Source: Chlorella sorokiniana (taxonomy: Eukaryota > Chlorophyta > Trebouxiophyceae > Chlorellales > Chlorellaceae). Taken from it: a stretch of 64,000 nt of DNA. The stretch lies in contig CP084608.1 in the NCBI GenBank assembly GCA_025917655.1, forward strand, positions 1,674,001-1,738,000, in the 5' to 3' direction. The notes under the pieces were generated by a model that saw nothing but the letters and a program-made list of their open reading frames with translations, was not told the origin of the DNA and did no database searches. This document shows positions 9,732 through 44,585 of this stretch, in pieces; position 1 is the stretch's first letter, and every line of letters starts with the position of its first letter. The position numbers and the translations under genes are program-made.

Positions 9732-10810
9732 ATGGTGTTCGTGCGCACTGGTGAGCGGACGGCTGCAGCATGACATGCGCAAAGACTGGCGGCAAACGCC
9801 AGCCATTGGATGTGACAGCGGGAGTGTCTGTTGACGCCATGTAGTGCGTGTGGGCGGTGCGTCGCACCTATCATGCAACGTGCCCAGCCCAAAGACATCC
9901 CTTCGCCGCTGCACTGTCTGCAGACCGCACCCATGTGCTGGAGCTGGGCTCCGCGGCCACTGTGGCCGATGTGAAGGCCGCCATCGAGGCCCGCCAGGGT
10001 GAGCGGCGGCGAGTCGTCACAGTGCGGTCCCCAGCCACGCCTGGCTGGCCTCTGTTCCGGAATTGAAAGGAGGCTCGTGTGAAGCAAAAATGTCGTTTGT
10101 CTCCTGCAGGCATCCCCGCTGAGGAGCAGCGCGTGATGTTTGCCGGGCGCCAGCTTGAGGACGAGATGCGCCTGGAGGCGGCCGGCGTGTCGGACGACTC
10201 CCAGATGTACATCCTCATGCGTCTGCTGGGTGGTGCCAGAAGCGCAAGAAGAAGACCTACACCAAGCCCAAGAAGCAGAAGCACAAGTGCGTGGGGAGAT
10301 GAGGAGGATTTGGCTGCTTCTCAGCTGTCTCGGCCCAGCACGGAGCGCTGCTCGCCGCCTTCCACGCGCTGCTGGCTTGGCTGCCCTTCTTCCGCCCGAA
10401 CCCCCTCTCCCTCCCTCCCCCGCAGGCACAAGAAGATCAAGCTGCGGGTGCTGAAGTTCTACAAGGTGGACGACTCGGGCAAGGTGCAGCGCCTGCGCAA
10501 GGTGTGCCCCCAGTGCGGCCCCGGCATCTTCATGGCGACCCACTTCAACCGCGTGTACTGCGGCAAGTGCCACCTGACGTGAGTAATGTGTACGGCTGGG
10601 GGGCTGGGGGGACGCTTGTGTGGCCCTACTGCCGTGGAAGGGCTGGCCAGGCGGAGCTGCCATTTGCTGCTGGGCAGGCTGGCCTGGCGGGGAGTGTGGC
10701 CAGCCCACGTCGCCAGCGCCCCCTGTTCTTGCCTCTCAGCACTGAAGCGCTGCTTGTCGCCCCTCCCCCTCTGCAGGTACGTGTACGACAAGGAGGGCCA
10801 GACTGCCTGA
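9732..10810 (+). CDS. RPS27A: Divergent ubiquitin fused to ribosomal protein eS31
   Basis: Precursor of the small-subunit ribosomal protein eS31, whose N-terminal ubiquitin normally acts as a folding chaperone and is cleaved off. Exons: 9732-9750, 9924-9998, 10110-10286, 10436-10578 and 10777-10810, all phase-consistent. The ubiquitin part is about 73 residues, from [15 protein letters not shown] to [18 protein letters not shown] and [12 protein letters not shown]. By alignment only K27 survives: K6, K11, K33 and K48 read Arg, K29 Ala and K63 Asp. Position 44 is Met and the end is LLGG, not LRGG. eS31 follows with [36 protein letters not shown], and a compact zinc site (CPQC...CGKC). One base appears to be missing between LLGG and KRKKK near 10236-10241, which breaks the frame as read; assembly error is the likely cause. 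Confidence 0.9.
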
Positions 10811-18590: not shown

Positions 18591-21500
18591 ATGGGGAAGC
18601 CTGTTCAGCCCACAAGTTTTATCGCTGAAGTGGCACCGGCCGCCGGCAACCGTGGCCCAGAGTACAGGTGCGAAGCGCGCGCTGGGCTGCGATCGGCAAA
18701 CTTCTGTGCCTCGGTGCCCCTTGGGGAGCCTTCCCAGGCGGTGGGGAGCGCCCCGTGGCATCAATTCAACAACCTCGCATGATCGGCGCGCTCAGTAAGG
18801 CTGCACGGCCTCGTGCACCAGCCCCAGCCGCTGGCGGTGGCGGCAGCGCACGTCACCCTCGCGTCCAACCCGCCGTTGCCCCCCCTGCAGGCCCACCATC
18901 GCCAAGGATGGCCCGCCCGCCATCCCTTATGCCTCGCTGTACGAGATGTTCATGGCCAGCGTGGAGAAGTTTCCCAGCAACAACTGTCTGGGCCACCGGG
19001 AGGGCGACGGGTACTCGTGGCTGACCTACAAGGAGACCGCGGAGCGCGCTGCCGCAGTCGGATCCGCCCTCGTCAAGGTCGGCCTCGCGCCCCATGGCCG
19101 CGTTGGCGTGTACGGCGCCAACAGCCCGGAGTGGATGATCGCCATGCAGGTAGGGAAGCATTTGTTGCAGCGGCCTACCAGATGTGCAACATGCAAGCGG
19201 GTGCTGCACGCCACGCGGTGCCCGTGGTCTGCCCACGTGCGGCCGAGCAGCAACCATCAACAGGCTGTGCACCAAGATGTTGCCCCTGCGTAGCTTGCCC
19301 AACCATGTGTGGCCCGCAGCCAGCTGTGTCGTGGGGGCAGCTTTGCTGCTCCTGAACACCGCTGCTGTGCACATGCCGCAGTCCATCCCCCACCCTTGTG
19401 CACTTGGTTGCCCGCCACTGCAGGCCTGCAACCGCCAGAACCTGTACTGCGTGCCCCTGTACGATTCCCTGGGCGAGAACGCCATCGAATACATCATCAA
19501 GCACGCCGAGGCCACCGCCGTCTTCGCGCAGAGCGAGAAGCTGGGCACGCTGGCCAAGTCGCTGCCGCACGTGAGCTGCGGCAGCCTGAGCCTCGCCCAG
19601 CTGGCGCTGCCTGCTGCTGCCTGCCGCAGGCTCGCAGCTCCGCCCGCTGGCCTTGCCGCCAATGCTGGCCCCTTCAGCGTGCGGCTGGGGGCTTTTCATC
19701 CCTGTCTGCTGACATTGCGTCGCCCCCACCGCACCCCTGACCCACACAGGTGGACGGCCTGGTGAAGACGGTGGTGTACTGGGGCAAGAGCGACGCGGCG
19801 GCGAACCAGGTGCGAGGCGCGCGCCCCGCTGGGCTGGGGGGCCGCGCTTCTATGCACTGGGCTGTGGGAAGGCATGCCGTGCCGCCGTCCATGAATGCTG
19901 CCCATTCTGTTCTTTGCTTTGCTGCAGGCGGTGGAGGCTGCGGGCGTGGCGGTCTACTCCTTCGACGATTTCCTCAAACTCGGCCGGGAGAACCCCGCTG
20001 AGCCGGGTGGGTGCAACAGGAGGGCAGCAGCTGCCCCTCGCCCGCTGCTCCGCACGCTGCGGCCGCGCCCGCAACGTGCTCGCCTGGCCCCTGATCACCC
20101 GGAGGCGGCTGCCAGCCCTCTGACCCCCGCCCCCGCCCCCCCCGCCCCGCCCTGCAGTGCCGCCCAAGCCAGAGGACCTGTGCACCATCATGTGTGAGTG
20201 GGGCTGAGCAGTGGCGCCTGGCCGCCTTGCCCGACATGCTTCCCTGCTTGCCCGGCCCTTCCTCAACAGCCTGTGCATTGAATTGCATGGTGGCGTCTCA
20301 CGGCTCTGCTGCCCGCCACACGCTCCCCCATGCAGACACCAGTGGCACCACCGGCGACCCCAAGGTGAGTCAGGCGGGGTGGTTGGGCAGGGGCCGGGCA
20401 GTGGAGCAGGGGGTGTTGCGGCCAGCCAGAGAGCACCCAGCCCTCCGAAATCAGCTGACAGCTGTCCCGGGCAGCATCGTCCCGCCACCACTCCCTCGCT
20501 GCCTTCACTGCCAAGCTGCAGCCCGCCCACGGCTTGCTGCTTGCCCACCCGCCGCCGCCTGCGTGCTGCTGCCCCCCCCGGCCCACCACCGACTGCCCAC
20601 AGGGTGTGATGCTGAGCCACACCAACGTGATGGCCGCCATCCTGACTCTGGAGCAGTTTGTGGCTGCGCACGACGTGCGGCTGGGCCCCGAGGACGTGTA
20701 CCTCTCGTACCTCCCCTGGCCCACATCTTCGACAGGTCCAGCCCCGCCGCCGCCGCCCACCTGCCGCCTGTGCTGCGCTGCCTGCCCCGCCCCGCCCGGG
20801 GGCGCCTGCAGGGCGTGATGCTGGGCCACCGCAGCGTGCTGGCCGCCGTCGCCGCCATGCGGGCCTTCCTCGCCTCTCTGGCCCCGTACGCGCACTCCTG
20901 GCTGGGGCCCGGCGACGTTTTCCTCTCCTACCTGCCCCTGGCCCACATCTACGACCGGTAGCCGGGCCCAGCCGTCGTGCTGCCCCGGGCTTCCGCCTGC
21001 AGCACAGAGCTGCATCTTACTTTTCTTCTAGCTGCGCATCCTACTGTCCTCTTTGCCCACCGATGCTCTGCATGCCCACATGCTGTCTTCGTCCACCCAG
21101 CTGACGCCTCATGGCGCGACCCTGCCCACTTCTACCCCCCCCGCCATTCCTTCCCGCCTCTTCGGCAGCCGCTCCTTTTCTCTCCCGGCCGCCACCCCGG
21201 CTGCCCCGGCCACGGTTCAGCGCCCGCTCCAGCAGCTCGGCAACCAGCCTGCCAGCATGCGCGGCTCTGGCTGGGCACTCGCCACGCTTGCTGAGCACCC
21301 TCTTGCCGACTGGCCCGGCGGCAGGGCGTGGAGCTGTCGCACCGCGCGGTGCTGGCCACGCTTTCCTCCCTGGCGGCGTTCCTGGAGGCGCACCGCGTGC
21401 ACCTGGGGCAGAGCGACGTCTACCTCGGCTACCTGCCGCTGGCCCACATCTATGACAGGCGCTTGCCGTTAACCCTTCCCAGCCCCCCTCCCCCTAGCGT

Positions 21501-24406
21501 GCCTCCTGTTCTTTGGGCCGTCTCCCACTGCCTGCCAGCCCCGCCCCTTCGAGCTCTCTGCCTCTGGCCATGTGTTGTCCTTTTTCATCCATACCTCTGG
21601 GCTGCCCGGGCAGGGCAGTCGTGTTGCGCTGCCCACTGCGCCCCTCGCGGCTTTTCCCTCTGCGCCTTTTGCCACCCTCGTCCATCCCACCTGACGCCTC
21701 CCCTTTGCCCTCCCTCTGCGCCCCCGGCCAATGATCTGCTGCTCCGCTTGACGGGTCATCCCTGCTCTCGTTTCACCCGCTTGTTCCCCTCCGCACCGCC
21801 CGTACCGCAGGACCTCCGAGGAGCTGTACCTCTACCTGGGCGCCTCCATCGGCTACTGGCGGGGCGACATCAAGGGGCTGATGGAGGACATCGGTGCCCC
21901 CGGGGCTGCGCAGCGCTCTGCGCCCTGCATGGCTTGCCCATGTGGATCCCCTTGCCTAGCCCCAAAGCACCCCTGTGTTTGACACACACACACACACCCC
22001 TTCTCCTCCTCCCCGCAGGCGCGCTGCGCCCACCCTGTTCTGCGGCGTGCCCCGCGTCTTTGACCGCATCTACGCCGGCGTGATGGCCAAGGTGGCGGAG
22101 GGCTCCTTCCTGAAGAAGACCCTCTTCAACTGGGGCTTCTCCCGCAAGCTGCACTTCCTGCAGAAGGGCCTGCCCCACGACAAGGTGGGCGTCGCCATGT
22201 GGCGCAGGCGCTCGGGTGCCCTGAGCACAGGAATGTGCGGCGAGCCTCTGGACTGGTTGGTTGCTCTCCAGCACCCTTCCTCGGCTTCAATCCTGCTCCC
22301 TGCCCGTTCCTCCGCCCTTCCCGTGCTTCCAGGCCGCCCCCATCTTCGACAAGGTGGTGTTCTCCAAGATCAAGGAGAAGCTGGGCGGGCGTGTGAAGCT
22401 GGTGGTGTCGGGTGCGGCGCGCCCCCGCCTGCTTCCTGTTGCACCTGCCTTGCTGGAAAGCCGCACAGCGTCGACAAGCGACCCAGGAGCCTGAGCTTGT
22501 CACTTTTCAGAGTGCATACATCCCCCTCCCCCACCGCCACCACCACACACACATTCCATTATTCGCGCACACACCCTCATCCCCTGCAGGCGGCGCCCCC
22601 TGGCGCGCCACGTCGAGGACTTCCTCAAGGTCACCATGTGCTGCCGCGTGGTGCAGGTGGGCCGCCCGCCAGTGGGGCAGCTGGGGGGGGGCGGGGCTGT
22701 CGGCCACGCCAGGCGCTGCACCAAAGCACTTGACGCCTCGGGTCGCAGTGCTCTGCCCCCATCTGCCCAGCTGCCACCCACCCACCACGACGTCGTGTGT
22801 TGCCCTGCAGGGCTACGGCCTCACCGAAACCTGCGCTGCCTCCTTCATCGCGGTGCCTGATGTGCCGGTGAGGGGAGCGACGGAGGCAGTGCATGCATGC
22901 CGGCGGGGCTCGGCCCTGGGTGCCTTCCTGGCCCCCGCCCTGGCACAGCTGCGCGGGCCTCCTCTGCCCGCCTTCCTCTGCGCCCGCCCTGCCCGCCTTC
23001 CTCTGCGCCCGCCCTGCCCGCCTTGTGCGCCCGTGCACCTCGGGACCCCGCCCCCTGCGCCCCCAGGACCACTCGGGCACCGTGGGCCCCCGCTGCCGGT
23101 GCTGTCCTTCCGCCTGGAGGCGGTGCCCGAGATGAACTACGACCCGCTGGCCAGCCCGCCGCGGTGAGGCTGTGTGCTTGTGGGTGCTTGTGGGTGGGGG
23201 TGGGTGGTGGGGGTTGTATGGGGGAAGGGGGCGCTCAGGGGCAGGAAGGGTCGGTGAAGGAGTTGGGTGTCGGTCACACTTTCGCTCGCCGTCACGTGAG
23301 ATGAGCCTCAGCAGTTCTGCGGCGAGGGCGGTGCAGCAGTGGCCCGCAGGGCCCTCGTCATCCAGCCTGCTCCTGCCACTCATCCCCCACGATGCCCCTG
23401 CCCTGTTTGCTCGCACCAACACCCCCTCTGCCTCCACGCAGCGGCGAGGTGATTGTGAGGGGCCCCTCCGTCTTCACCGGCTACTACAAGGCGGAGGACA
23501 AGACGGAGGAGGTGCTGGAGGCGGACGGCTGGTTCCACACCGGCGACATCGGCGAGCTGACCCCCACCGGCGCGCTGCGCATCATCGACCGCAAGAAGAA
23601 CATCTTCAAGCTGTCCCAGGGTGCGGCGTGGCATTGGGGGGGGGGGGGGGGCCTGTGTGTTAGGACGGCATCTCGGATTTGCCGTGCTCCTCCTGGTGTT
23701 GACAGCCGGGGTGCAGGGGTGGGCGGCGGGCCCTCGCTGCGGCGCCTTGCTGCCCACCTTTTGGCTGAGGAGTGTGTCCCCTGCTGCCCCCCCGCCCTGC
23801 TGCCCCCAGGCGAGTACATTGCCGTGGAGAAGGTGGAGGGCATCTACAAGATGAACCCCGCGGTGGAGCAGATCTGGGTGTACGGCAACTCGTTTGAGAG
23901 CCAGCTGGTGGCGGTGGTGGTGCCTGTGGCGGCGCGCCTGGAGGCCATCGGCGCCGCGGTGGGGGCCAGGGGCCCCGCCGAGGAGCTGGCCAAGGACGAG
24001 CGGGTGAAGAAGGAGCTGCTGGCGCAGCTGACCGCCACCGCCAAGGAGGGCAAGCTCAAGGTGGGGCGGCGGCGCCGCGCCTTCACGCCCTCGCTCGCAC
24101 CCGCGCTGCTTCGCTGCGCCACCCAGCTCACGCCATGCCAGGGAACCACCCCTCCCTCCTGCTTCGCGCACTTGCCAGCGCCGCACGCCCTCCTTGCCCA
24201 CCCAGCACGTCTCTGCGCCCCCCGGCCCCCGCCGCTTCCCGCAGGGCTTTGAGCAGGTGCGGGCGGTGTATGTGGAGTCCCCCTCCGCCCTCTTCTCCGT
24301 GGAGAACGACCTGCTCACCCCCACCTTCAAGCTGAAGCGCGCGCCGCTCCAGAAGAAGTACCAGGGCGAGGTGGACGCCATGTACGCGGCGCTGAAGAAG
24401 GCGTGA
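18591..24406 (+). CDS. Long-chain acyl-CoA synthetase with triplicated exon
   Basis: Activates long-chain fatty acids to acyl-CoA through an acyl-adenylate (ANL superfamily). The ATG at 18591 begins MGKPVQPTSFIAEVAPAAGN. Blocks in order: IPYASLYEMFMASVEKFPSN, YGANSPEWMIAMQ, CNRQNLYCVPLYDSLGENAI, the P-loop YTSGTTGDPK, YLPLAHIYDR, LFCGVPRVFDRIYAGVMAKV, VKLVVSGA, GYGLTETCAAS, GWFHTGDIGELTPTGALRII, DRKKNIFKLSQ, GEYIAVEKVEGIY and DLLTPTFKLKRAPLQKKY. This is the plant LACS1/2/4-like layout, without an obvious peroxisomal signal at the Ala-rich C-terminus. About fifteen exons with short introns. The exon after the P-loop exists in three alternative copies (20603-20735, 20812-20957, 21325-21458); only one at a time keeps the frame. 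A poly-G run lies in a late intron. Confidence 0.92.
20603..21458 (+). repeat. Three tandem alternative copies of one LACS exon
   Basis: Copy A (20603-20735) reads GVMLSHTNVMAAILTLEQFV to DVYLSYLP and AHIFDR. Copy B (20812-20957) reads GVMLGHRSVLAAVAAMRAFL to DVFLSYLPLAHIYDR. Copy C (21325-21458) reads GVELSHRAVLATLSSLAAFL to DVYLGYLPLAHIYDR. Each follows a CAG acceptor, starts at phase 0 and ends at phase 2. Lengths are 133 (one base short in a C run), 146 and 134 nt, so any single copy fits between the exon ending DPK and the exon starting TSEELYLYLG, while two or three in series shift frame. Joining A to B puts a stop at once. The copies are clearly diverged, so the duplication is not recent. 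Confidence 0.85.
23636..23651 (+). repeat. Poly-G run in a LACS intron
   Basis: Sixteen consecutive G lie a short distance after the exon ending KNIFKLSQ. It is the longest homopolymer in the window and likely to be miscounted. Confidence 0.8.
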
Positions 24407-28548: not shown

Positions 28549-29436
28549 GCAAGGATGTGAATGGGGGCCAATGCAAAGGGCACAGGGGCAGAGAACGGAC
28601 GCTGAGTATGAACAGCAGTGCCGCTGCAACACTGCGCCCGAAATGGGGTCAGCCCACTTGTGACAGTGCACCCACATACCGCATTACCACCAGATTGCTA
28701 CTAGCTCCGCCGTCTAGATTCTTGAAGAAGGCCACCCAGGGCTCGCCAGTGGTTGGGTCCACCGCCAGAGCTGGCGGCGACAGGGGTGCCTGGGCTCCTG
28801 TCCTGGTGCTGCCACCGCCAGCTGGCTGTGTCGCCAGCTTCAGCGTGCTCTGGTGGTGCCTGGCCAGCAAGCCAGCCCACCTGGCTTGCGTTTGCAGCCT
28901 CCTACGGTAGGCAGGTTAAGGTCGGCGCAGGGTGCAGATCATAAATGGGAGAGGCATGAAGGGGCAGTGGCAGCTCATGTCGCAGCAGGCGCCCATCGGC
29001 GGTGGGAAGGTTGGGGGCGCCAGCGGCGCTGCATTTGTGAACATCGAAGCAATAGATATAGAAGAAAAGGTGTGAAGCATACTGGCGGCCAACCACAGCG
29101 ACAATGTGGGGCAATGAAGAGCTGGCTGAGCAGCTTTATCAGGCCTTTGAAGGGGTTGTGAGGAAAGACAGCACGGATGGTGAATGGGGGCCAATGCAAG
29201 GGGGATGAGCAGGGAAAGAACGGAGGCAGAGCATGCTCAGCATAGCACAGCGGCCACTGCAACACCACGCCCAACATCGTGTACGCCCGCTTGCGAGAGT
29301 GGACGGTTTGAACCTATCATGCAACCCCATACCGCATCAGCACCAAAATAGTGAGTGACCCAAAGCCTTGTTTCCTCAGGAAGGCCACCCACGGCTCGCC
29401 AGTGGCTGGGTCCACCGCCAGAGCGGGCGGCGACAG
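28549..29436 (-). repeat. Tandem duplication of the glycoprotein 3' end
   Basis: Sequence around 28549-28800 is repeated at about 29172-29436, some 620-650 bp apart. Shared stretches include GTGAATGGGGGCCAATGCAA (28557 and 29178) and GGCTCGCCAGTGG...TGGGTCCACCGCCAGAG. On the minus strand both copies encode ALAVDPxTGEPWVAF followed by a different last stretch (LRKQGFGSLTILVLMRYGV or FKNLDGGASSNLVVMRYVG) and a stop. They are therefore two versions of the terminal exon with its flank. The copies have diverged by many substitutions and small gaps. Confidence 0.75.
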
Positions 29437-32400
29437 GCCAGGCAGCCCAAAGGCGCTCTCCACGAAGAACGGGTCGCCCACCGGGCCCAGGTGGTTAAGA
29501 GGGCGTACTTGAACACGGTGAGAGTGCTGGTGGAGGCGTCAAAGGGTTGGGTGCCAGACGCGCGCATGACCACGGCGTACAACTCGCCACTGGGTCCAAA
29601 CGCCAGCTTGGGGGCCATCGAGTCTGGTGCGGTTGAGCCTTGTGGATTGCCTGCAGGAACAACAAGATAGGCGGCTTGTGTGGAAGATGCACACGTGTCA
29701 CCTGCATGGCCCCCAGCGGCAGGTGTCGCAACGCAAGCTTGCATGTCAGTGACGTACCTCTGATCAATCCTAAAGAGGTTGGAATGAGGGTTTGGGGGTC
29801 GTATCTAAAGCAAAAGGAAAGATACGTGACTGCCGTTGTTGTGATGGTTTGCGTGGCGGCAACGTGTGGCACACCGTCCGGGCGCAGCGCAATGCTGACT
29901 GCGCTGGCAGCCAAGGGGAGCGTTGCGGCAACCCGGACAAAGCCGGCATCCACTTTTCTGGCACCATCTTCAGAGCACGCCCAGGGGCCTCTGGACACAG
30001 AGGAGCAGAGCACCACCCGCCGCAGAAAGAAAGGCTCCGGCGTCGACGGGAATGAGAGCAGAGCGACGGACTCGGCAGCGACCGCCACAAACACGCGCCT
30101 GGTGGCGGCGTCAACCGCGAGGTCGACGCCACGCCCGGCCTGCGCCACGCCGTTGTTCAATGGCAGCGGGGCTGGCCGCCGCCGGTTGCGTAAGCCACCC
30201 AGCAGCCGGGGCCATCGCGTTTGTAAACAAAGGCGCCGGTGGAGTCGGTGAAGGCCACCAGCGGCACGCCGTCCACGTCCACGGCCACCGCGACGTCGTT
30301 GGCTGCCGCCGACGCCACGACCTCCTGGACGACAGTCACTTCGCCGCTCTGTGCGGACAGGTCGAACGTGCTGTGGATTGGCGTGCCTGTGGTGGCGCCA
30401 CCGCCCAGGGAAAGGTATGCAGCGTGGGCCAGGCCTGTTGCGGGGTTGATCGCCAAGTCGGCCTGCGGAACTCCAGCGTTGAAGCTGCTGTTAAACTGAA
30501 TCGCCCAGCCAGCCGCCAGGGGCCTGTACACTATCAATGGGTAGAAGTTGGCCGGAGGCTCGAAGCTGCTCAGCGCCGAGGCGGGATGGCCTGCCTCGCC
30601 GCGCGCTGCCAGAAACCCAAGGTGGCGCGGACTGGCAACTGGGGGCCAACATCCTGGCTGCTTAAAGAGTTGTATTCGAACACCCATTGGCTTGACTGCA
30701 CATGGAGGGGCGACAGGAAGGGTTCAGGGAGGAGAAAGACATGCGTGGGTTGCCAGCGAACCATTTACCGCTGGAAGACACAGGCATGCCTCACAGCTGG
30801 ACACTTACCGGTGGGCTGGGTGGTGGGCTGGGTGGGGGCTAGGCGGCGGCGGGCTGGGTGGTGGTGCAGGAGGCGGTGGGCTGGGTGGTGGGCTGGGTGG
30901 CGGCGGGCTGGGAGGTGGGCTGGGTGGCGGCGGGCTGGGAGGTGGGCTGGGCGGCGGCGGGCTGGGTGGTGGGCTGGGTGGTGGGCTGGGCGGCGGGCTT
31001 GGTGGTGGGCTGGGCGTCGGCGGGCTGGGTGGGGGGCTGGGTGGCGGCGGGCTGGGTGGTGGGCTGGGGGCGGCGGCGGCCGGGGTGGTGGGCTGGGCGG
31101 TGGCGGCCGGGGTGGTGGGCTGGGCGGCGGCGGGCTGGGTGGCGACGGGCTGGGTGGGGGCTGGGTGGAGGGCTGGGTGGTGGCGGATTGGGTGGCGGTT
31201 TTGGAGGTGGGGGCTGAGGCTTTGGCTTGGGAGGTGGAGGGCGTGGCTTTGGCTTAGGAGGAGGAGGGCGCGGCTTGGGCTTGGGGGAGGCGGGGATGGC
31301 TTGGGCCTGGGGGAGGCGGGCGCGGCTTTGGCCTGGGAGGAGGGGGCCGTGGCTTGGGCTTGGGGGAGGAGGGCGTGGCTTGGGCCTGGGAGGAGGCGGG
31401 CGCGGCTTGGGCCTTGGAGGAGGCGGGCGCGGCTTGGGCTTGGGAGGAGGCGGGCGCGGCTTGGGCTTGGGAGGAGGAGGGCGTGGCTTGGGCTTGGGGG
31501 AGGCGGGCGTGGCTTAGGCTTGGGAGGGGGGTGGCTTGGGCTTGGGAGGAGGTGGGCGCGGCGTCGGCGTTGGTGGTGGCGGCGGCGGTTGTGGATAATC
31601 CACTGTCCAGTGAAGCAACGCTGAAGGGCTGCCGTTGTTTGGGTACAAGCGCAACCCTGCAAGCAACGGAAGGCACCACACCAACAATGTCCATGGGCGG
31701 CAGGCGGCGGTGCAATGAGAAGGCACGCCTGCTGAGGAGCATCGCCTCCCCCATCAGGCAGGCAGCGGCGGCTTCTCGCATGCGCATCAGCTGAACATGC
31801 CTGGGTCGCCGCATGCGGGTGGCGGCGCGCGGGTGCCGCGGCGCCGAGGAAGCGAGCGGGGCAGCCGGCGCGAGCCTGCATGCAGCAAGAGCAGGGTGTT
31901 TCATGGCAGGGGAGAGCAGGGGCGAGGATGGCAGCGCCGACCGTAAGCAAGAAGAACCTCCAAGGCGCTGAATGGGGCTGCGGAGCTAGCTGGGGCCTCA
32001 CCTCAAACCGGATGAGGAAGGCGCCCGGCACGGTGCGGCTGCGCTGCAGCACCCAGCGTGCCCCTGGGCCGCCCCATGCTGAGGCTGGCGTTGGCGCACA
32101 CAGACGAGGCGGTGAGGAAGCTGCGGCTGGGGCACCCGCCAGCTCTCGCCCCACCAGCTGCAGGTTGGTCGGGAACCGAGCCTTGGTACGACAGCGCAAT
32201 CAGGGCCACAGCAACACACGCTTGTCAACCTCCCAGGGACGGCGGCACTCAACCACGCTGCATCAAAATAGCGAGGCTATGCGGCAGCCAGAGCCCCGTT
32301 GGAGGGAGGCCTTGCCGCTGCACCTGGAACGTCAGCGGTATGCCCTGCAGCTCATCTGGCGGGGAGACAGCCAGGGGTGCCTCCACAGCCCACGTCGACC

Positions 32401-34078: not shown

Positions 34079-37000
34079 TCAGCGGAACTGCACGCCCAGG
34101 TCCCGAGCCTTGGAGAAGTCGGCGACGGTGACGGTGAGGGAGCGGCCGCTGTCGGCGGTGAGAGTCAGGCTGTGGGGCTTGCCCATGTCCACGGGGAGGA
34201 GCCGGCGTCGTTGACCCAGAAGCCCCACCTGCGGCGCGGGCGCAGGCACGGCATGGCTGGTCACTGGCCTGGGAAGCCGACCGGCGCTGCGGCGAGCGGT
34301 TGGTGGTGCCGCCCGGCGGCGCCAGCACAGCCCCCCTTGTGCCCTGCGTCTTGCGCTCACGTGTTGAGCTTCAGCGCCTTCCCGTTGATGGCCACCTTTA
34401 CGATGGGCTCCGCCGTGTTGTGCACGAAGAACTCCTGCCACCTGCGGGACAGCACGGGTGCCGTAACGCCTTAGAAGGGCACAAAGCTGGCCCCGCAGCA
34501 GGCCTGCCCAGCACCCTGCTCCCATCCATCGGAAGCACCTGCAGGCCACGAGCTTGCAGCCCGGGTGGACGCTGTCCAGCATGCCAAGCTGCCATGGCAT
34601 GCCAGGCTGCCAGGCTGCCCAGCCCCACCAGCGGTTGTAGGACTTGGGGTCCAGCCGGATGTTGCCTTGGATGTAGGGGGCGCAGCTGGTCCACTGCCAC
34701 TCGATCTGGACGCGGTCGGGGGCAGCCCCGTCAGCTCCAGGAACGCCGGGTTGCTGAAGTCGAGGTTGCCGTGCTTGCAGTCAGAGGTGGCACATCTGAA
34801 GGGCGGGGGCGCGCAAGGAAGTAATGGGCAGCGCGCACCGGCAGCATCAGCAGGCTGCGGTTCACATGTGCAGGAAAGGGCTGGCTGAGCTGACAGCCGA
34901 GCCGCCCTCCGCGCCTGGGCTGCCGCGCTAGAGCAGTGCCACTTGCGGTAGTGCGGCTGCTGACATCATGACGCTTGCCCTCAGGGCTGGAGCTGCCCCT
35001 TGTGGAATGCAGGCAGCAGCCACTCAGCCGCCCGCAGCAGCTCACTGGTCGATGATGTGCACCACGACGTACTTGTTGCGCACTCTGCACCTGCTGTCCA
35101 CGCATTTAGCCATGACACAGCGACCACACTGGCGCCCACCGTCCCACTGTTGCCAGGCGGGGCGGTGGGAGGGTGGGGGTTGGGGGGTTGGAAGCTGTTT
35201 CATGACAAGCAGCGCCAGCGGGCGGCTGCCAAAAACGAGCAGGTGCCCCTGCAGCTTGCAGCCAGGGTCGTCTTGAATGCACCGAGACCAGGCACCCACC
35301 CCGCCCCAGCCTCACACAGGCGCTGGAACGCAGGCGCCTGGATGCCCCCTCCCCCACCTCGCACCTGGTGGGAGTTGATGGCGGCAAAGTAGACTCGCTG
35401 CCAGGCGCTGAGCACGGGGTAGGCGCAGCTGAAGCCCCTGCCGCTGGTGACGGCGCCCGAGTAGGCTGTGGCCTGCCCGCTGACCACTGGGCCTATGGGC
35501 AGCGGCCCGCTGGCCTGCTTGGGCGGCGGCGGCGACGGGCGAGGCGACGGGGGCTTGGGGAAGGGAGGGGGTGGGCGTGGGGGCGGCGGGGATGGACGCG
35601 GCGAGGGAGGCTGCAGGCGTGGCGGCGGCGGCGAGGGGCGGGGCGAGGGTGGCCTGGGGGATGGCGGCTTGGGCGATGGCGGTGGCGGCGGCTTGGGCGA
35701 GGGCGGGGCCGGCGACGGTGGCCGCGGGGACGGCGGGGTGGGGAGGGGGTTGCCAGGGAGGGCGGGGAGGGCGGCGACAGCGGCGGGGGAGGGCTCCACT
35801 GCGGCAGCGGCCCGCCGCCGCCCACCTGCCCCAGCTGCACCCCCAGCTCCTTGGGCCTGCCCAGGTCGGTGAACACGGCGGTGACCTGGCCTCCCAGCTG
35901 GCCGCCCAGGCGCAGCGTGTGCTGGCTGGCGGGGTCGGCAGGGCTGGCCGACGTGTCGCTCACCCAGTAGCCGCTGCAGGCACCACGGAGCCGCAGTGGG
36001 GGAACCAGCTCAGGCCGGGGGAGAGACACGCGCCACCTTTTGATGCAGGCGAGCGCAGTCGGCAGCCGGGAAGGCGGGCGGGCACGGCTGGCAGGCGCGC
36101 ACCGCCGCGTGTCGGCGGCGCTCACCCCCGGCGAAAGAGCGGCTTGCCGTCCAGCTCCGCCCAGGCAATCGGCTCGCCGCTGTTGGTGATGTACAGATGC
36201 TGCATCCAGGGGTTGACGTCCCTGGGGTCCAGCTGCAGACCAAGTGGGTGGGTGGGGGTGGGGGTGGGGGGTGGGGGTGGGGGGGCGGCTTGAAACGTCG
36301 GCCGGTGGAGCCGCACGAGCGGAGCAGAGTGGGATGCAGCCCCGGAAACGGGCGGGCACCCTTGACGCAGACTGAGACCATGCACGCAGCCCAAGCATGC
36401 CGCCCGTCTGGGCAGGGCTCCTTCGCCCACCGCCTCGCAACTGCAGTCAACCCTGCAAGCCCAGCTCACCCGGATGCTGCCCTGGGTGTAAGGGGCGCAG
36501 GAGGTCCAGTTCCACTCCACCGCCAGCCGGTCAGCCACCAGCAGCCCCCGCTGACAGCCAGGAAGGCTTCGTCGCTCAGGTTGACGTCACCCGGGCGGCA
36601 GTCGCCGGTGGGGCACCTGTGGCGGGGGGGGTGCAGACATGTTGGTGGATGTCAAGGGCTGGCATCACCACATGCGGACGTCTGCCACAACCATCGTACA
36701 GCAGGCATAACAAGAGCGGTGGATGGGGGAGCAGGCGGCAGCGCGCCCCACCGGTCCAACACCATCACGGAGGTCCAGCCGGGGCTGTGCAGCGCGCATC
36801 GATGCACCGCACGGCCGCGCAGCGCCCACAGCTGAAGCCGTCTTCCCACTGCGCGGGAAGGGTGCGGTGCCGCTCAGGCAGGCGTGCATCGTGCCCGGCA
36901 GGGAGCGAGCGGCTGCAGGGATGCGCGGCAAGCCCGCGTGCTGGCTGGAGCAAGCTGCTCACCTGGCTCTGGGCGACGGCGGCGAAGAAGGTGCCCTGCC

Positions 37001-41769: not shown

Positions 41770-44585
41770 ATGAGCACGGACAGCCGGTGTTCGAGCCTCA
41801 ACCTAGCTTTGGAGCTGGAACGCTCCTCTGGCCTCTATCAGCTATGGCTTGAAGGCACGCTGACTGACTGCGAACTAGTGGCCAACGATGGCACTTGCTG
41901 GCAGGCGCACAAGTGAGCGGACGCCTTCTGGCGCTAGCGCTAGCGCACATTCGACCGTCTCTTGCCCCTGCGGCTGCGGCGCATGCTCTTGCGCCCTGCT
42001 CACCACCACATGGCCTTCCGTTCGCTTGCAGGATCGTACTGGCCGCCTGCTCACGCTTCTTTAGGGCCCTGTTTGCGGGTGCCTGGCACAGCAGCGGCCC
42101 TTCGCAGCCCGCGCCCGCGGCGGCCTGCCGCGCTGGTCGCTCAGCGGCGTTGACGGCGCCAGCCTGCAGCTGCTCCTGCACGCCGTCTACTCCAAGCGCC
42201 TGCCGCTCACGGGAGATGACGGCGCGGGGGAGGTGGCGCTGCTGCTGGCGGCGGCCAATTACTTGGAGGTACTGCCGGTGAAGGAGGCGTGCTGCCAGCT
42301 GCTGCGCAGTCGCCTGTCGCTGGCCAGCGTGGCGGAGACGCTCGCCCTGGCGGCTGCCCACGACTGCGCGGAGCTCGCGGAGGAGGCGGTGGGTGGCTGT
42401 GCAGCTGCGAGGGGCGGTGGGCGGAGCGGCGTACATCAGATGAGCGGAAGCTGGACGCCCCCACCCTGCTGGCCCTCCCGAAGGGGGAGGCCCCTCTGCT
42501 GGATGCTGCGAACGCCAAAGCACCCCATGCTGCTGCCCGCCCCCTCCCCCTCTCCCAACAGTCGCGTTTCTTTGAGGGCCACTTCTCGCAGCTGCTCAAG
42601 TCGGAGGCGGCCGCCAGCCTGGCGGTGCTCCCGCCCGACCTGCTGCGCCAGCTGCTGGCCAGCGACGGCCTGCACATCGGCAGCGAGGTGGACGTGGCGC
42701 GCGCCGCGCTGCTGTGGGCGGCCCCCGACCCCGAGCAGCGCAGCCCGCTGTTGGCAGACCTGCTGCCCGCGGCGCGCATGATGGTGGGCCCGCAAGCTCC
42801 CCGTGACCGCTGCCTGCTCATGCTTTTGCCCTGATGCAACCTGTGGAGGTCGCCCTCTGGCGGCTTCCCCGAACGCTTCAGCGCTGTTGAGCGCTCAACG
42901 CTCTGAAACCGGCCCCTCCTCTCCGGCCCCCCATGTGCAGCCGGCGGTGTTGGCGGAGGAGGCTGCACGCTGCGGCCTGCTGCACCCCAGCGGCGGCGTC
43001 TGCTTGGAAGCGCCGGCGGCAGGCCCTGCTGAGCCCAGCACTCCGCAGTGCAGCCCGCCGCCCAGCATGTCCTGGCAGCGGGCAGAGCAGCAGCAGCAGC
43101 AGCAGCAGGACCCGTGGCCGGAGCCTGAGTGCGCGGCGCTGGGCCGCGCCTTCCTGGATGCCTGCCAGCAGCTGCAGCGCGGCTGCCGCACCTCGCTGCC
43201 CATCGACGGCGGCGGGGCCCCGGCCTTCCGCCCGCGCTTGAGCTGCCCCACAGGGCTCATCCTGGCCGGGGGCTGGACGACGGCTGGCGGCCGCTGCGGT
43301 GAGCGACCGACGCTTGGCTGCCCATGCTGCCTCGTGGCGCCGCGGGCTCGGCATGCATTTGCTGCCCTGCTGGTTTTAAGCACCACCTCAACCGCATCAA
43401 CGCTGTTTTACATATGCCTGCACGCTGCCTCCCTTCTCGCTGCAGTACCGTCGAGCTGTACAACCCGCAGCGGGACTGCTGGGAGGCGGGGCCCCTCATG
43501 CCCGCGGCATGCTCCTTTGCCGCGGGTGCCATGCTGGGGCGCGACTGCCTGGTAGTAGAGGGTACCGCCCATGCCCCGCGGTCCTGGCCCTGGACCGCCA
43601 CGCGCGGCGCTGGCGCCACTGCCGCGGCCTGGCCACGCCCGGGTGAACATGGCGGTAGCGGCCCTGGAGGAGAAGCTGTTTGTGCTGGTGCGGAGGCGGG
43701 CTGCTGGTTGCACGCGTGCGCGAGGGTGGGGTGTGACGTGCAGGGTGCACGCCACCAGTCCCTGCTGGGGCCACGCAGGCAGCACAGCGCCAGGGCTGCC
43801 CGCCGGATACGCTGCTTGCCAACCGGCCCAACCAATCTGCAAGATTGCCGGGCGCGGCTGCCGCTCTCTGCCGCGCAGGGCGGGCGCGCCGGCATCGGCA
43901 AGGGTGCCGCCGTGCTGCGGGAGGTGGAGATCTTCTGCCCCGCCACCAACACCTGGCACGCCGCGCCCGGCATGGCCCCCCCGCGCGCCTCGCTGGCCGC
44001 CGCGGCGCTGGGCGGCCGCCTGTACGCGGTGGGGGCCAGGACGGGCGCGCCACGCACGCCAGCGCGGGAGGTGTTTGACCCGGGGCGGGGCGCTGGCTGG
44101 CGCTGGGCGCCCCCTGCACCACCCCGCAAGTACCTGGGCCTGGCGGCGGCGGGCGGCCGCCTGGTGGCGGTGGGCGGCATGAGCGGCGCCCGCCTGCGGC
44201 TGGGGGGCCGAGGCGCTGGACCCGCGTGAGGGGCGCTGGCAGGCGCTGCCGCCCATGGCGTGCCCGCGCGCTCCTCGGCGGGCGTGGCGGCGCTGCACGG
44301 CTGCGTGTACGTGGTGGGGGCAACGTTGGGGAGGACATCATGCAGGCGTGTGGCGGCGGGGGGCTTGCCAGGGTGCCCGCTATCCTGGCCGCGGCTTTGC
44401 AGGATGCCGGCAGCGGCTTGCGCAGCCCTTGCCCTCGCCGGGCGGAGTTCCCTCACGTGCCTCGCGAGCCCTGCCCTGCCGCAGAACCACGCCGGCGTGG
44501 AGGTGTGGGTGCCTGCGGCGGGACGCTGGCGGGCCTGCGCCCGATCAGCCACGGCCGCAGCGGCATGGCTGTGGCCCCCATCTGA
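41770..44585 (+). CDS. BTB-BACK-kelch protein, probable cullin-3 adaptor
   Basis: Likely substrate adaptor for CUL3 ubiquitin ligases. The ATG at 41770 gives MSTDSRCSSLNLALELERSS, then the BTB start YQLWLEGTLTDCELVANDGT and CWQAHKIVLAACSRFFRALF. BTB continues with GASLQLLLHAVYSKRLPL and VALLLAAANYLEVLPVKEAC. The BACK part has LASVAETLALAAAHDC, FFEGHFSQLLKSEAAASLAV and VARAALLWAAPDPEQRSPLL. Kelch blades follow: LILAGGWTTAGGRC, STVELYNPQRDCWEAGPLMP, MAVAALEEKLFVL, VEIFCPATNTWHAAPGMAPP, RASLAAAALGGRLYAVGA, RKYLGLAAAGGRLVAVGGMS, and a final blade ending PISHGRSGMAVAPI. A Gln/Pro-rich spacer lies between BACK and kelch. Several blades change frame as read, which suggests base-count errors in GC runs. 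Exon edges are uncertain in 43500-44400. Confidence 0.82.

Follow-up and report, generated by a model that had tools for sequence, protein, structure and literature searches.

Two mutually exclusive gate exons of 26 residues each occur in the human genes ACSL6 and ACSL1, and forms lacking both exons exist; in plants the gate versions are carried by separate genes (PMC1543647, accessible part of the text). The same part of that source gives the gate consensus of long-chain acyl-CoA synthetases (ACS) as D-x4-(Y/F)-LPLAH-x2-E. With oleate, the F-gate form of ACSL6 is about ten times as active as the Y-gate form, and the gate-less form has no measurable activity; residue 319, which is the gate, and residue 316 both matter in human ACSL6 (PMC2868784, partial text). 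Two further systems are relevant. The cyn23 gene of the green alga Volvox carteri contains a pair of homologous mutually exclusive exons, 106 nt each, verified by RT-PCR (PMC4378016, partial text). Tyr-236 of Populus tomentosa 4CL1 (PDB 3a9u) is a substrate-binding residue, and Phe occupies this place in two poplar relatives (PMC4916118, partial text).

A long-chain acyl-CoA synthetase (LACS) gene in the window, which is the whole stretch of 64,000 nucleotides analysed here, resembles ACSL1 and ACSL6, as they are described in the accessible text of PMC1543647, in its enzyme class, in the segment behind the P-loop that carries the D-x4-(Y/F)-LPLAH gate, and in its tandem candidate alternative exons. 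The differences from the human genes, as far as the same text describes them, are considerable. The exons here number three, have 44-48 codons and begin directly behind the P-loop, compared to two exons of 26 residues in human. The exon lengths are not a multiple of three, and skipping breaks the frame, whereas skipped forms occur in human. The human swap exchanges Phe and Tyr at the gate, whereas Tyr is present in all three exons of this gene. The homologous exons of Volvox cyn23 are likewise of a length that is not a multiple of three (PMC4378016, partial text), but that gene is cyclophilin-related, has two copies and was studied by RT-PCR, whereas the present one encodes an acyl-CoA synthetase, has three copies, and their alternative use is predicted from the sequence. 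The Y/F variation seen here lies at the place matching residue 236 of 4CL1; in the accessible text of PMC4916118 it is found between separate genes, and here it is found between exons of one gene.

An earlier, sequence-only reading of this DNA stated that no green-algal LACS with such a layout was known to have been described. This stands to the extent that the literature matches listed, which comprise titles and abstract openings and cover few subscription papers, include no LACS from algae or plants whose gate exons are mutually exclusive. The principle, nevertheless, has a precedent in the gate-exon swap of human ACSL1 and ACSL6 (PMC1543647 and PMC2868784, partial texts). What is new relative to the known swap is the number of copies (three), the larger exons, the frame lock and the fixed gate residue.

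The gene and its exon map

The gene extends from about 18892 to 24406 on the + strand, in a model derived from splice sites and reading frames. It has 15 constitutive exons (e1-e6 and e8-e16) and three alternatives, A, B and C, for the seventh exon. The features are:

18892..20193, +, upstream LACS exons e1-e5, from splice sites, open frame and the PF00501 match of the spliced forms
ending at 19149, +, e1 (start not settled)
19424-19570, +, e2
19750-19809, +, e3
19928-20006, +, e4
20158-20193, +, e5
20336..20364, +, constitutive exon e6, which completes the P-loop YTSGTTGDPK and ends DPK, phase 0; donor GTGAGT
20603..20735, +, gate exon copy A, 133 nt as printed; GVMLSHTNVMAAILTLEQFVAAHDVRLGPEDVYLSYLP-x-AHIFD
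20736..20811, +, A-B intron, 76 nt
20812..20957, +, gate exon copy B, 146 nt; GVMLGHRSVLAAVAAMRAFLASLAPYAHSWLGPGDVFLSYLPLAHIYD
21325..21458, +, gate exon copy C, 134 nt, GC donor; GVELSHRAVLATLSSLAAFLEAHRVHLGQSDVYLGYLPLAHIYD
21811..21893, +, constitutive exon e8, (R)TSEELYLYLGASIGYWRGDIK..., which takes phase 2 from a copy
22019..24406, +, downstream LACS exons e9-e16 to the stop codon, from splice sites and open frame

The spliced forms containing A, B and C match the Pfam AMP-binding profile PF00501 with 287.2, 282.9 and 281.4 bits, respectively, the curated cut-off being 29.9. By this match the gene product belongs to the AMP-binding (ANL) family and would be a long-chain acyl-CoA synthetase, with a predicted enzymatic activity. 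Each copy alone matches profile positions 179-218, with 30.0 (A), 25.7 (B) and 24.4 (C) bits; the cut-off is set for the whole protein and the copies were scored alone. The D-x4-Y-LPLAH part of the gate consensus is present in B, in C, and in A outside the broken codon described below, and all three have D in place of the final E. Form C matched 180 distinct sequences among the solved structures. In the best 60 of these 180 matches an oxidoreductase-named entry and carboxylic acid reductases come first, followed by 4-coumarate-CoA ligases and luciferases. Form C also matched two bacterial loci in a search of genome contigs, and no relatives were found in viral contigs.

Anatomy of the three copies and the frame lock

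The sequence-only reading placed three homologous tandem exons directly after the P-loop exon, and they are indeed there, between e6 and the phase-2-requiring exon at 21811-21893. All three have CAG acceptors and start in phase 0, as that reading had it. The proposed phase 2 end and length of 3n+2 apply to B and C, whereas A as printed is 3n+1, its C run being one base short. The four extra codons ascribed to B are present. The family core, SH/GH and YLPLAHI, is found in the copies, with the frame of A breaking between YLP and AHI. When the four extra codons of B are left aside, the amino acid identity is 24/43 for A/B, 25/43 for A/C and 25/44 for B/C. Thus B and C are homologous tandem exons with matching phases, and so is A if its C run is a sequence error.

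The earlier proposal that exactly one copy can be used agrees with the sum of the lengths. With A taken as 134 nt, inclusion of none, of any two or of all three copies breaks the frame, and both skipping and double inclusion would be nonproductive. The accompanying statement that A joined to B stops at once does not hold for the printed sequence: it needs one more base in A, and the printed A+B has no stop at the junction. Reading through past B, in turn, meets a TAG at once. If A has 134 nt and the 76-nt intron is retained, the length sum puts A, the intron and B in one frame, and no stop interrupts the intron or the start of B. No intron of the gene is shorter than the A-B intron (those away from the copies, 13 in number, measure 118-278 nt), and splicing from A to B may be hindered by the small size of this intron.

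The missing base in copy A

Exons e9, e11 and e13 of the LACS gene are each one base short of the family frame, at C runs. One-base frame breaks are also present in two neighbour genes, which we take by eye to be exosome RRP45-like and ubiquitin-S27a-like, namely in the exon at 1565-1735 and, outside a C run, in the ubiquitin-S27a-like gene near 10230 (10228-10262). Four of these five breaks are thus located at C runs. Since single-base losses recur in this sequence, the frameshift of A is weak evidence that the copy is dead, and it was rejected as proof of this: e9, e11, e13 and the two neighbour genes break frame in the same manner. Judged from frames, not reads, the one-base loss in A is probably a sequence error. 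The sequence as a whole seems prone to one-base losses in conserved-looking coding exons.

Splice sites

The donors of the copies are GTCCAG (A), GTAGCC (B) and GCGCTT (C, a GC donor). All are weak; neither this nor the GC donor of C figures in the earlier reading. Their scores are -0.09, 2.02 and -1.17, compared to -0.45 to 11.89 for the 14 constitutive donors, each of which was left out of its own matrix, whereas A, B and C were scored with the full matrix. The A and B donors are therefore at the low end of the constitutive range and the C donor is below it; across the 254 GT of the gene the median score is -1.03. A G at position +5 is present in 13 of the 14 constitutive donors and in none of the three copies. 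The acceptors score 7.38 (A), 10.14 (B) and -0.04 (C), the constitutive range being -0.97 to 15.78. A search for alternative donors from 45 bases upstream to 90 bases downstream of the copies gave no other in-phase GT for A and B, and for C a single one, nine bases on, that scores -7.42. Overall, C looks like the least sound copy.

Weak donors suit regulated exons and decay equally. Nevertheless, at least one of the weak copy donors should work if the gene is live, because ACSL6 without a gate is inactive (PMC2868784, partial text).

RNA pairing as the selector of splice sites was considered and set aside: among 28 pairs of splice-site windows compared with shuffles, the best two gave P values of 0.005 and 0.01, which is unconvincing for 28 tests. 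An inverted repeat, 20948-20968 / 21312-21332 (21 nt, 76%), links the B donor with the C acceptor; it does not exceed shuffles (P 0.16).

Tests for constraint on the copies

The copies are coding-like in composition, unlike every intron beside them. At codon positions one, two and three, A (first 111 nt) has a GC content of 0.70/0.32/0.89, B of 0.73/0.48/0.96 and C of 0.77/0.39/0.95; the upstream constitutive exons have 0.62/0.46/0.91. The highest and the lowest position differ by 0.48-0.57 in the copies, by 0.45 in the upstream constitutive exons and by 0.03-0.24 in the four adjoining introns.

Conservation was assessed with a profile of 33 bacterial LACS rows (35 were aligned, and two were dropped as pieces of a protein already present), 32 of which came from genomes searched as one phylum. 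Matches were obtained in 149 of 149 genomes of one bacterial phylum, which served only as an outside profile. With the broken codon of A counted as a match, residues identical in all three copies occupy 13 of the 16 conserved columns and 7 of the 28 others (33 rows; Fisher P 4e-4), and the pairwise Fisher P values are 1.5e-4 for A/B, 0.024 for A/C and 0.014 for B/C. When 23 non-redundant rows were used and the broken codon was excluded, P over four cut-offs was 0.0006-0.0504 for A/B, 0.046-0.10 for B/C and 0.065-0.19 for A/C, the B/C and A/C tests with these rows being mostly not significant. Rank tests with the 23 rows gave 7e-5 (A/B), 0.0099 (B/C) and 0.021 (A/C). These comparisons suggest that the differences between copies tend to avoid family-conserved columns, strongly so for A/B and modestly for the pairs with C. 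C carries non-family residues at columns 3, 8 and 35, and B does so at column 8; in addition, there are three columns where all copies depart alike. Of the three conserved columns affected in C, there is one at which all three copies differ, and at the others the family residue is retained in A or B.

The plain Ka/Ks ratio is 0.67 for A/B, 0.66 for A/C and 0.99 for B/C. Synonymous codons differ at 7 of 24 (A/B), 7 of 25 (A/C) and 5 of 25 (B/C) shared residues, where about 9 are expected at full randomisation, and synonymous change is near saturation for A/B and A/C. The flanking 76 bases of the copies, upstream and downstream, resemble one another no more than shuffled sequences do (P 0.11 or more). 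The copies are therefore old, yet open. Intron remnants of the duplication were considered as well: an A/B likeness extended some 60 bases into the upstream introns, which are C-rich, but over the 76 bases upstream of A and B it did not exceed shuffles (P 0.13), and the eight other comparisons were also null.

Neutral evolution was simulated from a proxy ancestor: 0 of 5000 runs attained the family score of B while staying open in frame, and 1 of 5000 attained that of C; the number of conserved residues was matched in 0.18% (B) and 1.8% (C) of the runs. The simulation is uninformative on A (7 changes, P 0.31), to which the proxy ancestor leans. The GC3-GC2 contrast of C is larger than neutral decay would leave (P 0.006), whereas that of B is not (P 0.18).

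What a swap would alter

The mutually exclusive layout and the placement of this segment beside the acyl pocket, which the sequence-only reading gave for ANL enzymes, are supported by the anatomy, the frame arithmetic, the family matches and the conservation. Most of the differences between the copies are located between the P-loop and the gate. The gate residue itself is Tyr in all three, and the place equivalent to human residue 316 is occupied by Y in A, F in B and Y in C. The gate-motif histidine is followed by different residues, the sequences being HIF in A and HIY in B and C. An F/Y gate switch of the kind found in human ACSL6 was thus rejected, the F/Y difference being two places after the histidine with Tyr at the gate throughout. 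In the alignment with the 4CL chain 3a9u, the place two after the histidine corresponds to residue 236.

Interpretation and competing explanations

We consider, with a probability of roughly 0.6, that A, B and C are mutually exclusive fatty-acid gate exons of one LACS gene, C being the least certain of them. Tandem duplication would have given one long-chain acyl-CoA synthetase three interchangeable versions of its fatty-acid gate segment. A mature message would contain exactly one copy, spliced between the P-loop exon and the exon at 21811; skipped or double products would be out of frame and lost. The copy chosen would determine the stretch from the P-loop to the gate, as well as the residue just past the histidine of the gate motif, and would thereby tune the fatty acids accepted or the speed of the enzyme. 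Such a regulated choice and the differing substrate handling are inferred. From the sequence it appears probable that at least two copies are used, and use of all three has somewhat less than an even chance. Three LACS forms with different chain preference, as proposed in the sequence-only reading, would be a tentative extension, the donors being weak and C the least sound copy.

The copies could alternatively be what is left of an old tandem duplication, with a single one (A or B) in use and the others slowly decaying and skipped in splicing. We regard this as rather unlikely, although several observations fit it well: the donors of all copies are weak and that of C is GC, the Ka/Ks of B/C is about 1, C has the lowest family scores, and the conservation tests with non-redundant rows are weak for the pairs with C. 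Relics of this kind are difficult to reconcile with open frames and coding composition that were kept while the flanking introns lost detectable likeness, with differences that tend to avoid family-conserved columns, and with the neutral simulation for B and C. Another explanation takes the array as a set of poison exons, in which double inclusion shifts the frame and leads to decay of the message, so that the amount of the enzyme is regulated and not its type. Poison exons have no need of a well-formed gate segment, yet all three copies match the family; moreover, with A at 134 nt and the 76-nt intron kept, A, the intron and B share a frame. This explanation is improbable, even though every combination except exactly one copy breaks the frame, a stop follows at once on reading past B, and the donors are weak. 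Finally, copies from paralogous LACS genes or from haplotypes might have been joined in one contig by the assembly. The several single-base losses in coding exons indicate that the sequence is not of high quality, but the flanking exons are present as a single set, the introns between the copies are unlike, and the copies are too diverged for haplotypes. Such an artefact is very improbable.

The reading as mutually exclusive gate exons can be extended to a broader and distinctly tentative proposal, namely that one gene yields three acyl-CoA synthetases through three frame-locked gate exons, that this arrangement arose apart from the vertebrate two-exon switch, and that the stretch between the P-loop and the gate together with the post-histidine residue tunes the substrate while the Tyr stays fixed. 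If this is true, two distant lineages vary fatty-acid activation by exon choice at the same enzyme site, and the gate would be a favoured evolutionary tuning point of lipid metabolism. The gene would be a non-animal case of mutually exclusive splicing with three options, in a pathway relevant to oil production. Its three gate variants in one protein background would also form a compact natural set for probing substrate choice.

Other repeats in the window

Eight families of direct repeats (minimum length 55 nt, copies no more than 2500 bases apart) occur in the window. Two of them are the LACS exon copies, four are low-complexity arrays, one is a triple and one is a pair. The long arrays at 30806-31588 and 35519-35772 are G-rich and of low complexity, with many copies spaced 12-27 bases apart. 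The triple is a 74-nt unit at 43975-44333, whose copies are 70-72% identical to the reference copy and are spaced by 141 and 144 bases; these are perhaps protein repeats. The pair consists of diverged 71-nt units at 28714-28784 and 29367-29437, which are 89% identical and lie 653 bases apart, start to start. On the minus strand both translate to LSPPALAVDP(T/A)TGEPWVAF, and the pair may be another duplicated exon.
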